Positions 12,239 to 26,950 of a DNA stretch of 34,626 nt are shown piece after piece. The stretch's first letter is position 1. The number at the start of each line of letters is the position of its first letter. A program made the translations under genes and the position numbers. Source of the stretch: a virus; the IMG/VR virus record IMGVR_UViG_3300005563_000069, positions 1 to 34,626 of that record. One strand, given 5' to 3'. Under the pieces are notes generated by a model that saw only the letters and a list, made by a program, of their open reading frames with translations, searched no databases and was not told where the DNA came from.

Positions 12239-12358
12239 TTATTGGCGTGTTAATAATTTATAGGCCCATCCAACACCCAGGCTCATTAGGATTAGAAATG
12301 CAAAACCCAAAAAAATAACCCACCATGGGGTCTTTTCCGGAAATTTATCTATTCCCAT
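12239..12358 (-). CDS. 39-residue single-pass membrane peptide, candidate holin
   Basis: The ATG at 12358 opens a 40-codon frame ending with TAA at 12239. The peptide has a short N-terminus (MGIDKFPEKTP), one strong membrane segment (WWVIFLGFAFLILMSLGVGW) and a short basic tail (KLLTRQ). The start overlaps the methyltransferase stop by 14 bases and the stop is 9 bases before the lysozyme ATG, so it sits in a coupled methyltransferase-peptide-lysozyme operon. Its size and position fit a small holin or pinholin-like protein that would release the signal-less endolysin. Function is inferred from topology and context. Confidence 0.7.
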   Translation of the reverse strand: MGIDKFPEKTPWWVIFLGFAFLILMSLGVGWAYKLLTRQ

Positions 12359-13343
12359 AGTATTTATCGAGTTTTTGTTTAAACCAGATTGAAATTTCCA
12401 TAGGCGGAGTTTTTGTTACTGCTGCCCTGGCTTTATTGATCCAGTAATTTCTTTTGAGTCCTTTCTCAACATAAAGCCTGAATGAGTCCGGAACCCCCTG
12501 GATTCTTGCTAATTGCCTGGGAGATAGTTGTCTACCCCAGTGATCGAACTGCCTATTGGATTTACGGGCTGTAGCAGGGTAGTCTTTTTTTCTATTCCGA
12601 TAAACCCCTGGTGCATTTTTATATTTCCTATCTGTAACAGCCCACCTCTTTGCTCTCGGTTTAGAAGCCCAAACTCTTTGAACTTCATATAAAGGCATTT
12701 TGCAACCACCATACATTGCTATTTCCTGAGTTGAGTATTCTGATATATGCCCCAATGGTAAATTAAATTTCATCAGGTCCCCATATAATTCCCCGCAAGT
12801 TTTGATTTTATCCCTTCGATCGGGGAGACGAAAGATTTTCTCCCAATTTCCCACTAGATTATGACGAATTCCTATGATAACTAACCTTTTTCTATTGATC
12901 TGGGAATTCCCCCAATGGGAGACTGAAGCGGTATGTAGAATCAAAGTGTAAGAACCCATTGTTTTGGCCCACCTCTTTTGAGGTAAAGAGTTCATAAGCC
13001 CAGGCAGGTTCTCCAGGTAAAAAAAATCCGGACGGTATTTCCGGATGCTCTTCAAAGAAATGGCGAGAGAAGCATTTAATCGGTGATTCCCCAATTTCTT
13101 GGCTCTGCTGTATCTTAACACCGAACCACTCCCGCAATCGGGAGATGAAATTATCACATTGGGCTTCAACGCATTCTCTGGCAAGTCTCTCCATAAAGGG
13201 ATGTTTCCGAAATTCACTTTCCATTGTTCATTCTTTGGTGTATGAAAAATAGCTCTTGGCTCTATATTGCCAATGCAGTGTTCTTTGAAAGGAAATAGGC
13301 TTACTCCAATGCCCGATGATACCCCAAGTACCGTATAATCCAT
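12345..13343 (-). CDS. DNA cytosine-5 methyltransferase (C5-MTase)
   Basis: A 332-residue protein with the C5-MTase motifs in order: motif I around 5-19 (VLGVSSGIGVSLFPF, AdoMet binding), motif IV SSPDCGSGS (66-74, catalytic Cys70), motif VI ENLPG (111-115), motif VIII QINRKR (148-153), a variable target-recognition region (about 165-265), motif IX RQLSPRQLARIQGVPDSF (271-288) and motif X near NYWINKARAA (299-308). The usual Pro before the catalytic Cys is Asp, as in some phage C5-MTases. No restriction enzyme gene is adjacent, so it is probably an orphan that modifies phage DNA against host restriction. It diverges from the plus-strand gene at 13393. Confidence 0.9.
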   Translation of the reverse strand: MDYTVLGVSSGIGVSLFPFKEHCIGNIEPRAIFHTPKNEQWKVNFGNIPLWRDLPENALKPNVIISSPDCGSGSVLRYSRAKKLGNHRLNASLAISLKSIRKYRPDFFYLENLPGLMNSLPQKRWAKTMGSYTLILHTASVSHWGNSQINRKRLVIIGIRHNLVGNWEKIFRLPDRRDKIKTCGELYGDLMKFNLPLGHISEYSTQEIAMYGGCKMPLYEVQRVWASKPRAKRWAVTDRKYKNAPGVYRNRKKDYPATARKSNRQFDHWGRQLSPRQLARIQGVPDSFRLYVEKGLKRNYWINKARAAVTKTPPMEISIWFKQKLDKYYGNR

Positions 13344-14504: not shown

Positions 14505-14688
14505 TGTGTATTCCCAGGATTCTATCACCAGAGAGTGGTATAAGCAATATCGTTGGTATTCCCATCGAGCTGCAATGGTAAAAAACCAAAAAGAGGCCAT
14601 GAGGATGCTTGAAAAAGCCCAATATTACCTTGATAAAATTTATGAACGCCGTAAAATGTTTCGTCATGCTAAAAAATGCCGTTTTTAA
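14458..14688 (+). CDS. Small secreted protein with signal peptide
   Basis: 76 residues. MKKLAILSLVICGYLNVYSQ is a typical Bacteroidetes signal peptide ending in the common YSQ cleavage site. The mature part (DSITREWYKQYRWYSHRAAM and on) is short, basic and rich in aromatic residues. No family recognised. It overlaps both the preceding gene (47 bases) and the following DUF1643 gene (about 23 bases). The same S-Q cleavage context occurs in the gene at 13772, suggesting a set of exported small proteins in this cluster. Confidence 0.6.
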   Translation: MKKLAILSLVICGYLNVYSQDSITREWYKQYRWYSHRAAMVKNQKEAMRMLEKAQYYLDKIYERRKMFRHAKKCRF

Positions 14689-15169
14689 CAATGATCGTAC
14701 CCATAGGTACACTCTTGCCAGAATCTGGAATTCCGAAGTAAGCCTTATTTTATTCATTGGATTAAACCCTTCCACTGCCGATGAATTAAGGGATGATAAT
14801 ACTGTAACTCGGTTAACTACCTTTGCCCAAAATTGGGGCTATGGGGGATTTTACTTGGTAAATTGTTATCCCTGGATAGAAACCGATTCTGATGATCTGG
14901 ATGCCCGGTTAATGGAGGAATCAGACAAAATTCTTAATAAGGCCAAGACGGAGAATAAAAAGCATATTATCAGAGTTTGGAATTTTTGCCATACTCCGGT
15001 TTTCATGTGGGGAGCTCATGAAGTTGATCCCGGGATGGTAAATTGGCTTAAAAATAGATTCCGTGGAGCAAAATGCTTCGGACATACCAAAGATGGTCAT
15101 CCAAAACATCCATTATATCTTCCAAATGAGACGAATCTAGTGGATTTTATCCCTAAGATAAGGAAATGA
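14666..15169 (+). CDS. DUF1643 family protein
   Basis: 167 residues from the ATG at 14666; an upstream in-frame ATG at 14609 would only add sequence unlike the family. The family features are all present: the RYTLARIW opening, IGLNPSTAD at 31-39, DDNTVTR at 43-49, GYGGFYLVNCYPW, then FGHTKDGHPKHPLYLP near the C-terminus. DUF1643 proteins are common in phages and bacteria; their biochemical role is not known to me. The protein appears full-length. It is in the plus-strand cluster behind small secreted proteins. Confidence 0.9.
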   Translation: MLKNAVFNNDRTHRYTLARIWNSEVSLILFIGLNPSTADELRDDNTVTRLTTFAQNWGYGGFYLVNCYPWIETDSDDLDARLMEESDKILNKAKTENKKHIIRVWNFCHTPVFMWGAHEVDPGMVNWLKNRFRGAKCFGHTKDGHPKHPLYLPNETNLVDFIPKIRK

Positions 15170-17415: not shown

Positions 17416-17970
17416 TTAATGGTTATTTTGAAGTTTAAAAATTTCATCCTGTAATGTCCAAAGGGATACTTTTACGGCAGTATTTATGCTATCTTGAGCC
17501 TCCTTGTTAGTTTCTAATGCATTTACCTTTTCTTCCATATGCTCTACCTTCATAGAACCAATCTTTCCAGTGAGCATTTGATCCTGGGTATTATCCACAT
17601 CTGTAATCCGGTTCTCCACTAAACCCATTGATACCAGAAAAGTGAGTACCCAACAAATGAAGATGATCACCATTATATGGTACCTTTTCATTAGTTTTGT
17701 GTTTTGGTCTCTCAGGTACCTAATATCCAAATCCAGGTTATCTGCCCGATTATTGGTTTCATCATGTAGAATGTTTAATTTCTCGGATAATTTGAGCTCA
17801 AAATTGGATGGTGCTATTCCGGGCTCTTTTATTCTTTCTTCTATGGCCATTAATCTTAATTCCATGGCCATAATTTGTTCTGGTGTAATAATTTGTTCTG
17901 GTGTAATAATTTGTTCTGGTGTAATAATTTGTTCTGGTGTAATAATTTGTTCTGGTGTAATAATTTGCAT
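17416..17970 (-). CDS. Membrane protein with N-terminal IITPEQ repeats and coiled coil
   Basis: 184 residues. The N-terminus is five perfect IITPEQ repeats (residues 3-32), followed by a helix (MAMELRLMAIEERIKEPG), a coiled-coil segment (LSEKLNILHDETNNRADNLD) and one membrane segment (about 99-119, IMVIIFICWVLTFLVSMGLV). The C-terminus has RITDVDNT and another coiled coil. The repeats start right at the start codon. If the real start is the internal ATG at MAMELR, the repeats would be leader DNA; the intact frame through five units favours coding. No family recognised. Confidence 0.6.
   Translation of the reverse strand: MQIITPEQIITPEQIITPEQIITPEQIITPEQIMAMELRLMAIEERIKEPGIAPSNFELKLSEKLNILHDETNNRADNLDLDIRYLRDQNTKLMKRYHIMVIIFICWVLTFLVSMGLVENRITDVDNTQDQMLTGKIGSMKVEHMEEKVNALETNKEAQDSINTAVKVSLWTLQDEIFKLQNNH
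17871..17967 (-). repeat. 18-bp tandem repeat, five perfect copies plus a partial
   Basis: The unit on the plus strand is TAATTTGTTCTGGTGTAA, repeated without change at 17871, 17889, 17907, 17925 and 17943, with a partial copy at 17961. The unit is a multiple of three, so copy-number change would alter length without shifting frame. It encodes IITPEQ on the minus strand. Confidence 0.95.
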
Positions 17971-18589: not shown

Positions 18590-19063
18590 TTATTTGATCA
18601 GGGATTTGATAATGTCTAATGCAAGGGAGAGATTTCCGATCTTCCCCTCATCCTGGGAATTGGAGATGGAATGAATGGAAAAATCATTCAATCGATAATA
18701 TGTTTTATAATCCTTTTGGAAAAGATCGATCTCCTTTTGCAAATCTTCTATTCGATTATGCTTTGCAAAGAGGAGAATATTATCTGTCATCCTTCTGATC
18801 GATGACCTTCTTTTATTTCTCCATTTTTTCCCCTCATCCGAATTGATCCAATCTTTTCCCTTTCCTTCCGGATAGACATAGATTGTTTCCTTCATTCTTT
18901 TTTCCTTCACATTCACATTAGACAATTTCTCTGTGAATGCAGAAAGATTGATTTTTGATAGAGAGGAATCCGGAGGATTTGGATTTCCTTTTTTTGCATT
19001 GGAATCTTGAGATTTTTTAAAATCTTTTTTTGCATTCTTAGATGCAGATTGATTTGCATTCAT
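18590..19063 (-). CDS. Hypothetical Lys-rich protein
   Basis: 157 residues. The first 60 are Asn/Lys/Ser-rich and look disordered (ASKNAKKDFKKSQDSNAKKG). The middle has KWRNKRRSSIRRMTDNILLF and a helical segment (RIEDLQKEIDLFQKDYKTYY). No family recognised. It has its own Bacteroidetes-type promoter (19132-19162) with an overlapping inverted repeat and its own terminator, so it forms a single-gene unit. A basic, separately regulated protein beside a palindrome-rich region could be a DNA-binding regulator or replication-linked protein, but this is only inference. Confidence 0.6.
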   Translation of the reverse strand: MNANQSASKNAKKDFKKSQDSNAKKGNPNPPDSSLSKINLSAFTEKLSNVNVKEKRMKETIYVYPEGKGKDWINSDEGKKWRNKRRSSIRRMTDNILLFAKHNRIEDLQKEIDLFQKDYKTYYRLNDFSIHSISNSQDEGKIGNLSLALDIIKSLIK

Positions 19064-19131
19064 TTTGATGAATTTTGATTGTGATTAATATTTCAAAGAA
19101 CAATGGAGATTTTTTATCTCCTTCTCTATAT

Positions 19132-19162
19132 CAAAGATAGGAAAATATTTTTATCGGGCAAA
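19132..19162 (-). promoter_or_regulatory. Bacteroidetes-type promoter
   Basis: Minus strand: TTTG at 19159-19162, 19-base spacer, TATCTTTG at 19132-19139, matching the Bacteroidetes -33 TTTG / -7 TAnnTTTG consensus. It drives the gene starting at 19063. The 5' leader would be about 60 bases. Confidence 0.75.
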
Positions 19163-19193
19163 TTTATTTGCATCTTTTTTTAAAAATAAATTT
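19160..19193. promoter_or_regulatory. Inverted repeat overlapping the -33 element (possible operator)
   Basis: AAATTTATTT (19160-19169) and AAATAAATTT (19184-19193) form a perfect 10-bp inverted repeat with 14 bases between. It overlaps the -33 TTTG. Repressor control of the 19063 gene is a reasonable reading; the surrounding A/T richness would also suit a DNA-unwinding element. Confidence 0.5.
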
Positions 19194-19221
19194 ATTCATT
19201 TCCGTTAGAAATATTGATCAT

Positions 19222-19528
19222 TTGGCATCCTATTTGCCAATGATGCCATTTTGCCTCCATATTATGCCATTGCCTCCAATGCAGGATAGGCCCAATAAGG
19301 CCATTTTAAAAAAACCCAAAGGGGCCTGATTAGCCCATGGGTGGCAATGGCCATAAGAAGCTTTATGGCCTTATTGGCCCAATAAGGTTTGTGGTACCTA
19401 ATATTAGGTACCCTATCATATATTACCCAATAATACCTAATTGGTACCTAGGGGCGACGGGCCATCAAAGGTTAAGAAAATAGACCATTAATAGCCATTA
19501 TGCCAATATGGCCCAATAAAGCTTTATT
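19222..19528. other. Palindrome- and repeat-rich gene-free region (possible origin or control locus)
   Basis: The gap 19064-19660 has no gene. It holds TTGGCA/TGCCAA (19222-19240), GGCCATAA/TTATGGCC with 6-base loop (19349-19370), CCTTATTGG-C-CCAATAAGG (19369-19387), the perfect 20-bp GGTACCTAATATTAGGTACC (19393-19412) and AATAAAGCTTTATT (19515-19528). GGCCCAATAA recurs at 19289, 19376 and 19510. An A/T-rich stretch flanks it at 19141-19205. This density is unlike the rest of the window. Candidate roles are replication origin, partition or packaging site, or a large operator; sequence alone cannot choose. Confidence 0.7.
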
Positions 19529-19660
19529 AGCCAATAAAAAAATCCCCAACCTTAGCGGCTTTTGGAGATACTAATATATGGGCTGACTCTGGTAAGCGCA
19601 GCCACAATAAAGGGTAGGAATTACCCTACCCCTATCATCAATCAAAACCATAACCCCATC

Positions 19661-19936
19661 TTATAAAGCCAAAGATATATCAAGCAAGGTAAATGTAATG
19701 GTCCAGGATAATGAATCGCCTCCATCCTGGAGAATATGCAGGTTATATTCAGGTATATTATAACCCAGATTGGATGCGATCTCTTCGCATGATTTCATAA
19801 AATTCCCGGGGCTTAGTGGGCTGGTAAGCTTTACCTGATCTGCCCGAGTTTTTTCGGGTGAGAAATCCTTTAATTCCTCTATGATGGTATTAAGGTATTG
19901 GTCTGCCCATTCAAGGGTTAATTGGGGCTTTTCCAT
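19661..19936 (-). CDS. Hypothetical protein
   Basis: 91 residues: acidic-helical N-terminus (LEWADQYLNTIIEELKDFSP), then FMKSCEEIASNLGYNIPEYN and a beta-strand end (DSLSWTITFTLLDISLAL). No family recognised. Its ATG overlaps the stop of the upstream small gene (TAATG at 19934-19938), so the two are translationally coupled. It is the last gene before the palindrome-rich region. Confidence 0.65.
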   Translation of the reverse strand: MEKPQLTLEWADQYLNTIIEELKDFSPEKTRADQVKLTSPLSPGNFMKSCEEIASNLGYNIPEYNLHILQDGGDSLSWTITFTLLDISLAL

Positions 19937-20115
19937 TATCTTGGTTTTAAATGAAGTGTTAAATCAAATGAGGTTTCGGTCCAATGGTGCCCAGCAACTG
20001 GGTCAAGTTTGATGGTTGGGTGATCCTTCAAATAAGCCTGAATATGCCTGAATAACTTAACCTTTTCAAGATCGAGCTCATTTGGGGTGATCTTCCATTT
20101 AGATTTCTGGTTCAT
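19936..20115 (-). CDS. Hypothetical 59-residue protein
   Basis: ATG at 20115 to TAA at 19936. The sequence runs MNQKSKWKITPNELDLEKVK, then LFRHIQAYLKDHPTIKLDPV, then AGHHWTETSFDLTLHLKPR. The end resembles the C-terminus of the next gene (both describe a strand such as TETSFDLTLHL / SWTITFTLLDI), so the pair may be related. Stop and start overlap as TAATG with the gene at 19936. No family recognised. Confidence 0.7.
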   Translation of the reverse strand: MNQKSKWKITPNELDLEKVKLFRHIQAYLKDHPTIKLDPVAGHHWTETSFDLTLHLKPR

Positions 20116-20163
20116 GAGAATTGATTATATGATTTTGATTGCATAAAGATATGGAATAAATAA

Positions 20164-21039
20164 CTACTTTTTCACTATAAAATCCTCGGCTTTTAGGGTA
20201 TCTGGTACCTCATGAAGTTGGGTACCATCTTTGGAAATTACCTTGTTTGGTATCCTAATTCCTATCTTGGTAAGGTCCTGATTTCTGGCATTTACGTCCG
20301 GGATTTGGTCTTTTAATTCTGCCTCTTTGGCTTCAATTAATTGAGTGTTACTGGCCATGCTCAGCGAGTTATTTTGTATCAATAATAAAGCGTCTTCAGG
20401 GCTCAAATATTCCTTTCCTGAGGTACCCGATGAGGCTCCATTAGGCATGAAAATGTTGATTGGGTTTTTGTCATTGTATCTGCCTATTAGGTCGTGAAAA
20501 GGCTTCTGGGCACCTATTAAATTGGTAAGGCTTTTGTTTACCTCTGCCGATAAAAAGGCCACGTATTTGTTGCCTTGTTGGGCCAGTAATAGTTCGGTTT
20601 GGCTCTGGCATAGGGCCATAATTTCTAGGCTCTTTTGGAGGCCTAGGGCGTGGAGACCCCTAGCGAATTGCCTTCCTTCTTGTCCTTCAAAGAATGCTGA
20701 AATCCTTTGCAGTTCTGCATTTGAGTCTTTTAGTAGTTGTTCTGGGGTAATTGATAGGTAAGCTGCCATATGATTTATTGATACCGTTTTACCCATCCAT
20801 TTAAATCCCTCTCTCGTATATATCTGTATACATATCTTCCTCATCCTTTCTTGTTCTCTTTTCTTATCTTCTTCATTTCCTTGTTTTTGGTGGTTTAGTC
20901 TTTGTAGGTTGAGGTATGTAAGGCCTAAGGGTCTTGGGTGCCTCATTGGTTCTTCCTTATTAGTATTCTTTAGATGATCTTCCAGTTCTTTTCTCCTGGT
21001 TTTTTGTTGGTTTCTGGTACCATGTGTCTTTTGGGCCAT
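20164..21039 (-). CDS. Hypothetical basic protein with possible helix-turn-helix
   Basis: 291 residues. The first 75 are very basic and Gln/Glu-rich (RRKELEDHLKNTNKEEPMRH, then NEEDKKREQERMRK). Residues 88-105 (INHMAAYLSITPEQLLKD) have the spacing of a helix-turn-helix, and the middle is helical (LQKSLEIMALCQSQTELLLA). No named family fits; it could be a small-terminase-like or other DNA-binding protein, but this is speculative. It contains several GGTACC sites. The genes upstream at 21789 and downstream at 20115 are tightly spaced minus-strand neighbours. Confidence 0.6.
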   Translation of the reverse strand: MAQKTHGTRNQQKTRRKELEDHLKNTNKEEPMRHPRPLGLTYLNLQRLNHQKQGNEEDKKREQERMRKICIQIYTREGFKWMGKTVSINHMAAYLSITPEQLLKDSNAELQRISAFFEGQEGRQFARGLHALGLQKSLEIMALCQSQTELLLAQQGNKYVAFLSAEVNKSLTNLIGAQKPFHDLIGRYNDKNPINIFMPNGASSGTSGKEYLSPEDALLLIQNNSLSMASNTQLIEAKEAELKDQIPDVNARNQDLTKIGIRIPNKVISKDGTQLHEVPDTLKAEDFIVKK

Positions 21040-26455: not shown

Positions 26456-26950
26456 TTATTTATCGAGTGTATATTCTAATAATCGGTCTATAGTTTTAGC
26501 AGGTAATTCTTTCACTCCATAGAAACACAATCCATATGACGGGTTATTCTCCCTTTTAAAACTCATCTTTTCTAGGATTCTTTGCACTACCCTTAGATTT
26601 GCCTGCTTATCCCGGATGGGATCATCTTCCCATGGCAAATACCATCCCTTTTTCTCCCAAAGATTCAATGCCTGGATTCCGGGTTTATTTTTCATGTATA
26701 GAATCCTTCTTGCCTTTATTTCAGCTTGTAATAGATGGGTTCTCTCACGAATGAATCTACCTTTATCCAGGAAGAAAAATAGATGCCCTTCCCCCAGGGT
26801 AAATTCCCGGGGGATAGGTGCATCCTTTAATGAGCCATTGTGGTACTTGAGTTTCCATAGTAGTGGCAATCGCCAAATTTCTTTTTGCTCAGCAATAAGA
26901 TGTTCGTCTGATAGGATTCTCGGCGGTAACTTAGCATTTATTCGAGTCAT
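26456..26950 (-). CDS. denV: Pyrimidine-dimer DNA glycosylase / AP lyase (T4 endonuclease V-like)
   Basis: 164 residues (T4 DenV is 138). The N-terminus MTRINAKLPPRILSDEHLIA then EQKEI matches T4 DenV MTRINLTLVSELADQHLMAE: the catalytic Thr2 that becomes the nucleophile after Met removal, Arg3, the D-x-H-L-x-A-E helix (DEHLIAE) and Glu24, equal to catalytic Glu23 of T4 with a one-residue insertion. FTLGEGHLFFFLDKGRFIRE equals the T4 'F.lG.GHv.FFydKl.flr.R' block. It cuts UV dimers in DNA by base excision; phages use it to repair their own genome. It starts 4 bases from the preceding gene stop. Confidence 0.9.
   Translation of the reverse strand: MTRINAKLPPRILSDEHLIAEQKEIWRLPLLWKLKYHNGSLKDAPIPREFTLGEGHLFFFLDKGRFIRERTHLLQAEIKARRILYMKNKPGIQALNLWEKKGWYLPWEDDPIRDKQANLRVVQRILEKMSFKRENNPSYGLCFYGVKELPAKTIDRLLEYTLDK

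Follow-up and report, generated by a model that had tools for sequence, protein, structure and literature searches.

Introduction

The replication origin of E. coli, oriC, carries a cluster of GATC words, that is, many short palindromic methylation-type sites, beside an A+T-rich stretch. Iteron-type origins of plasmids and phages are built from direct repeats and come with a Rep gene, and REP/BIME elements are GC-rich palindromic repeats that occupy intergenic gaps. To our knowledge, the initiation sites of uncultured Bacteroidota phages are unmapped. In phage P1, methylation of GATC by Dam at pac is needed for proper packaging (PMC12707154).

Here we describe a gene-free zone rich in palindromes and GGCC words in a 34,626-bp IMG/VR virus record, called the window below. 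The zone is a real, recurring and position-conserved DNA element in a phage lineage, and it was found through its position and motif content, not through alignable sequence. Like oriC, it has clustered short palindromes next to an A+T-rich stretch, but its recurring word is GGCC rather than GATC and there is no skew sign of bidirectional replication. The direct CTGGCC repeats of three relatives (L154, L164 and L165), ~36, 32 and 25 bp apart, recall iterons; in contrast to iteron origins, the spacing is irregular, the sites are mostly palindromic, the motif varies between relatives and no Rep was identified. As in REP/BIME elements, GC-rich palindromes lie in an intergenic gap, though here they are confined to one locus and lack long high-identity copies. 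Like P1 pac, the zone would be a cis site with many copies of a short palindrome, and its phages encode a methyltransferase. It differs in that the word is GGCC, the enzyme is a C5-cytosine methyltransferase of putative specificity, and the cluster lies upstream of a gene that we call B, not within the terminase gene. A zone of this type offers a concrete place to seek an origin, a packaging start or a late operator in dozens of genomes. It would also exemplify a cis element kept by motif density despite turnover of its sites, a kind of element that alignment-based searches miss.

Results

Composition of the zone

The zone and its parts are as follows.

19222..19528, no strand: palindrome- and GGCC-rich zone without genes
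19222..19240: dyad with 6-bp arms and a 7-nt spacer
19286..19513, no strand: GGCC cluster, with GGCC at 19289, 19299, 19323, 19349, 19367, 19376, 19460 and 19510
19349..19370, no strand: inverted repeat GGCCATAA / TTATGGCC, 8-bp arms, 6-nt non-palindromic spacer
19369..19387, no strand: 19-nt dyad CCTTATTGGCCCAATAAGG, 9-bp arms and a 1-nt centre
19393..19412, no strand: 20-bp perfect palindrome GGTACCTAATATTAGGTACC
19515..19528, no strand: 14-bp perfect palindrome AATAAAGCTTTATT

An earlier note on this DNA had described a cluster of perfect palindromes and repeats in a gene-free region bordered by A/T-rich sequence. Every coordinate was checked, and the dyads and repeats exist where the note had placed them. 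The word perfect holds for the whole of 19393-19412 and 19515-19528, and for 19369-19387 as 9-bp arms around a single central nucleotide, but for 19349-19370 and 19222-19240 it is true of the arms and not of the whole. The repeated GGCCCAATAA does have three copies (19289, 19376 and 19510), the only ones in the contig, the five copies of TGCC were counted at 19235-19271, the region 19064-19660 contains no ORF of at least 60 aa, and the A/T-rich neighbor corresponds to 19140..19200, between the zone and a promoter.

Within 19200-19540 (341 bp) we counted four dyads whose arms measure 7 bp or more, against 0.62 in dinucleotide shuffles, and none of 500 shuffles reached four. No perfect palindrome elsewhere in the contig is as long as the 20-mer or the 19-mer, and three of the contig's nine palindromes of at least 14 bp are inside the zone, the contig-wide number being ordinary (6.25 in shuffles). 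The contig's GGCC density also peaks here, with 8 in 500 bp, and a further GGTACC lies at 19443, beyond the 20-bp palindrome. Palindromes of 6-8 bp taken alone show no excess in the zone over local dinucleotide content, and no long high-identity repeat copies were found in it. What is unusual in the zone is thus GGTACC, moderately GGCC, and a few long dyads.

Neighboring genes and signals

Most genes around the zone lie on the minus strand, along which the order is gene A, a 91-aa ORF, a terminator-like stem, the zone, the A+T-rich stretch, the promoter, a boxA-like element and gene B.

20164..21039, minus strand: gene A, 291-aa protein, small-terminase candidate
19661..19936, minus strand: ORF of 91 aa lying upstream of the zone, without a family match
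19611..19627, minus strand: terminator-like stem-loop with T-rich tail, putative end of the upstream transcription unit by consensus match
19140..19200, no strand: A+T-rich stretch leading from the zone to the promoter
19132..19162, minus strand: Bacteroidota-type promoter, TTTG (19159-19162), 19-nt spacer, TATCTTTG (19132-19139)
19093..19101, minus strand: boxA-like GTTCTTTGA in the leader, by sequence match
18590..19063, minus strand: gene B, basic 157-aa protein, first gene past the promoter

The boxA-like GTTCTTTGA has a putative role, and such an element was found in 8 of 28 loci. Terminator-like sites number five in the region, against 1.7 in shuffles. In 21 of the 28 loci the 700 bp before gene B include a promoter-like TAnnTTTG (expected, 0.39 per 700 bp), and G+C falls to 16-27% over the last 300 bp before gene B homologs in relatives. 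Since the −7 consensus of Bacteroidota promoters is TANNTTTGY (PMC12632263), the motif makes a Bacteroidota host likely, and the phages probably infect bacteria of this phylum; matches among genome contigs were MAG bins. One locus (L107:2436-3935) has a promoter-like block of ~80 bp in two direct copies upstream of gene B.

Family scans of the A and B proteins returned no function. The AF2 model of B is helical and confident (pLDDT 81); against the PDB it had no significant match, the best being weak and ribosomal S20-like (E 0.56), and in BFVD it matched only an uncharacterized phage protein. Gene A, which itself contains GGTACC sites, encodes a predicted HTH-like domain (residues 65-119) followed by long helices, and Foldseek and VIA-align returned HTH/sigma-region-4-like and generic helical matches only. 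An assignment of A as the small terminase was not supported, the model (pLDDT 58) being too poor and without a significant fold match.

Recurrence in relatives

Relatives were collected through TerL, which gave 23 IMG/VR loci and then 80 using alignment, and which also matched the human-gut phage MT121964. IMG/VR scans with gene A, gene B and the portal protein yielded no relatives, and DNA similarity of 18900-20200 to a phage collection gave no match. Homologs of A and B are present in many relatives in the same order, and gene B served as the positional marker for the zone. Most of the sequence from A to B cannot be aligned among them, yet its motif vocabulary recurs. Conservation of the palindromes, raised in the earlier note as a check, therefore has a divided answer: relatives do not preserve the dyads letter for letter, and an exact match to the 20-mer was not found in IMG/VR, whereas position and type of motif are conserved.

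The GGCC density maximum falls in the A-B DNA in the window and in G001, G003, G012 (narrowly), G006 and G014. In seven of nine genomes the 2 kb upstream of B exceed all other 2-kb segments tested in GGCC; G007 and G010 show no clear excess there. Several locus boundaries in a set of 14 genomes had been drawn partly on GGCC peaks, which biases those counts, so we rely on tests placed by gene B. Seventeen loci were fetched after the idea had formed, with 1.5 kb upstream of B or part of it available. These contain 133 GGCC against 34.6 expected, all 17 exceed the expected number (Wilcoxon p=1.5e-5, without correction for phylogeny), and in 10 of them the count is matched by no other segment of the locus. 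The related word AGG-N0-CCT was found 59 times against 7.9, with less enrichment at spacings of 1-3, falling as spacing grows, and GGTACC 51 times against 8.2 in loci partly chosen on GGCC.

Part of this excess is compositional. Local GG/GC/CC content accounts for some of it, and because a Markov model places locus GGCC hardly above the prediction from GGC and GCC, the excess is one of GGC/GCC-type words overall. A general intergenic GGCC bias was rejected for most genomes, in which other intergenic DNA is mostly unenriched: density is 3-14 GGCC per kb in the intergenic DNA of the locus and mostly ~1-4 elsewhere between genes of the same genomes, with G014 not far above the rest of its intergenic DNA. 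No helical phasing was found in the GGCC spacing, and no description of such a region was found in the literature.

Among closer relatives, individual sites turn over while position and motif content persist. The zone is mostly unalignable among W01, W02 and G005, which share a block of ~46 bp with GGCC or GGC words at its bounds; the 19-nt core of the W01 block was matched in G005 only. Between W01 and G005, 6 of 11 GGCC are kept, against 17 of 169 (~10%) other GC-rich 4-mers. In L154, L164 and L165 all four CTGGCC copies are kept, but the zone is well conserved throughout and GGCC is therefore not singled out, its retention being not much better than that of other GC-rich words. Between G006 and G026, GGCC sites are partly kept and partly gained or lost.

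Discussion

The zone probably acts in cis as DNA, through many copies of a protein-binding site, and would be either an initiation region for replication or packaging or a large operator. The earlier note had named origins, partition sites, packaging sites and large operators as candidates; all but the partition site fit, better than a gene or an ordinary 3' UTR would, a GGCC/GGTACC-rich gap that is syntenic in most relatives. From position and motif content, both of which are observed, we infer protein binding, cooperativity and the event that would be started, and we give about even chances to a cooperatively bound cluster that starts a DNA event, as distinct from a gene or a structured RNA. 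The sites would be short and two-fold symmetric, with half-sites AGG and CCT joined as AGG-CCT (spacing 0) or AGG-TA-CCT (spacing 2), in a cluster that occupies the gap from the putative end of a transcription unit to the A+T-rich promoter of the one that follows. A phage DNA-binding protein may bind many such weak sites cooperatively, and the bound complex would most likely start replication or the first packaging cut, with promoter activation less likely.

Replication initiation would fit the clustered dyads beside an easily melted A+T segment, although the low-G+C 300 bp before gene B also contain a promoter. Cumulative GC skew, another check raised in the earlier note, does not single out a bidirectional origin at the zone. 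In favor of an origin, three of five genomes have the maximum no more than ~3 kb upstream of B; in the others it is ~8 and 13 kb off. The skew reverses only in a short block on the downstream side of B, where ORFs lie on the opposite strand at least in L009. Its sign is otherwise the same along most of the genome, which does not point to a bidirectional theta origin.

A packaging site alone, at which the small terminase, perhaps the product of gene A, binds the repeats and positions the first headful cut, is unlikely. End overlaps of ~78-127 bp in G006, G019, G023, G026 and G037, which on their sequence are probably complete circular assemblies, point to circularly closing, permuted genomes, the expected product of headful packaging. 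Also in favor, TerL is a member of phrog_2 with matches in many T4-like phages. Against the proposal, T4-like phages package without a unique pac (PMC9611059). The gene immediately upstream of TerL looks membrane-anchored and unlike TerS, and A, with its predicted HTH and long helices, would be the better candidate, but its model is poor and matches no fold significantly, and in G005, G007 and G014 gene A is 4-6 kb away while the zone remains with gene B. About 5 of 16 near-complete contigs break at -2.2 to +0.7 kb from gene B, as ends produced at a pac site might, but the breaks may stem from repeats, since W01 terminates in a repeated promoter-like block.

Two contig ends deserve separate mention. 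L004 (MT121964) ends in a promoter-like block also found ~1.3 kb earlier, so assembly may have stopped here at a repeat. L181, a contig end of G024, begins in the late direction with a fold-back hairpin of 65 nt, which may be genuine or may have arisen in assembly.

We consider it unlikely that the zone is a large operator or enhancer of the gene B promoter, through which a phage regulator would time the following unit. In most relatives, as in the window, a Bacteroidota-type promoter does follow the zone directly; the sites, however, extend 1.5 kb upstream over successive gaps around small ORFs, unphased, and their span far exceeds that of usual operators.

The need of P1 pac for Dam methylation makes it worthwhile to compare the cluster with the methyltransferase that these phages encode.

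12345..13343, minus strand: C5-cytosine DNA methyltransferase, shared by nearly all relatives

In nearly all relatives the gene lies between B and TerL. Compared with the PDB, its profile matched M.HaeIII (GGCC) best (2e-9, 40 bits, most of the enzyme spanned) and M.HhaI over the catalytic half (32 bits), which suggests GGCC as the specificity. Short palindromic methyltransferase-type sites are clustered in the window and most relatives, with GGCC as the methylated site taken as an assumption. Two near-complete genomes that lack the enzyme (G016 and G019) have weak clusters of 3 GGCC each, but two fragments without it at the usual place (L127 and L135) have 12 and 6. That a HaeIII-like enzyme marks the cluster and that the mark gates the start of replication or packaging is an unlikely proposal. 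If true, it would give an orphan enzyme a function, and the gated site would do with 5-methylcytosine what P1 pac or Dam-controlled oriC does with Dam methylation.

It is improbable that the zone has no function and merely reflects composition or mutation in an intergenic gap that tolerates change. Fast site turnover, and the share of the GGCC excess that local GG/GC/CC content yields, speak for this reading. Against it, the same genomes show little enrichment in most of their remaining intergenic DNA, most relatives have the cluster in the same position, and GGCC is preferentially retained in the W01 group.

A structured noncoding RNA or structured UTR is highly improbable. The minus strand has a strong predicted fold (z -6.2 over 451 nt), but the plus strand folds too (z -3.7), as palindromic DNA would on both strands. 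In relatives the fold signal is absent or strand-inconsistent, and compensatory change was seen in 0 of 77 and 3 of 73 pairs, with both covariation terms unfavorable (three sequences each). Rfam returned nothing at the gathering score and chance-level matches only below it. RNA structure as the main reading was rejected on the relatives' folds and the unfavorable covariation, and a role at the DNA level is preferred. The partition site (parS) named as one candidate in the earlier note was rejected, as 14 phage records searched for ParA/ParB (PF02195, PF13614) gave no match, the sole hits being on other contigs of a MAG.

Several other features of these phages were recorded. GATC is present at 0.02-0.10 of Markov expectation in G005, G010, G014, G015 and W02, against 0.86 in the window, and its scarcity in those relatives probably reflects avoidance of a host restriction system. 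The window itself carries the tailed-phage genes for terminase, portal, head protease, capsid and endolysin, and also encodes a DUF1643 protein, together with a UV repair enzyme that is endonuclease V-like (14609-15169 and 26456-26950). The protein encoded at 17416-17970 has an unusual repeat at its start, QIITPE in five tandem copies.
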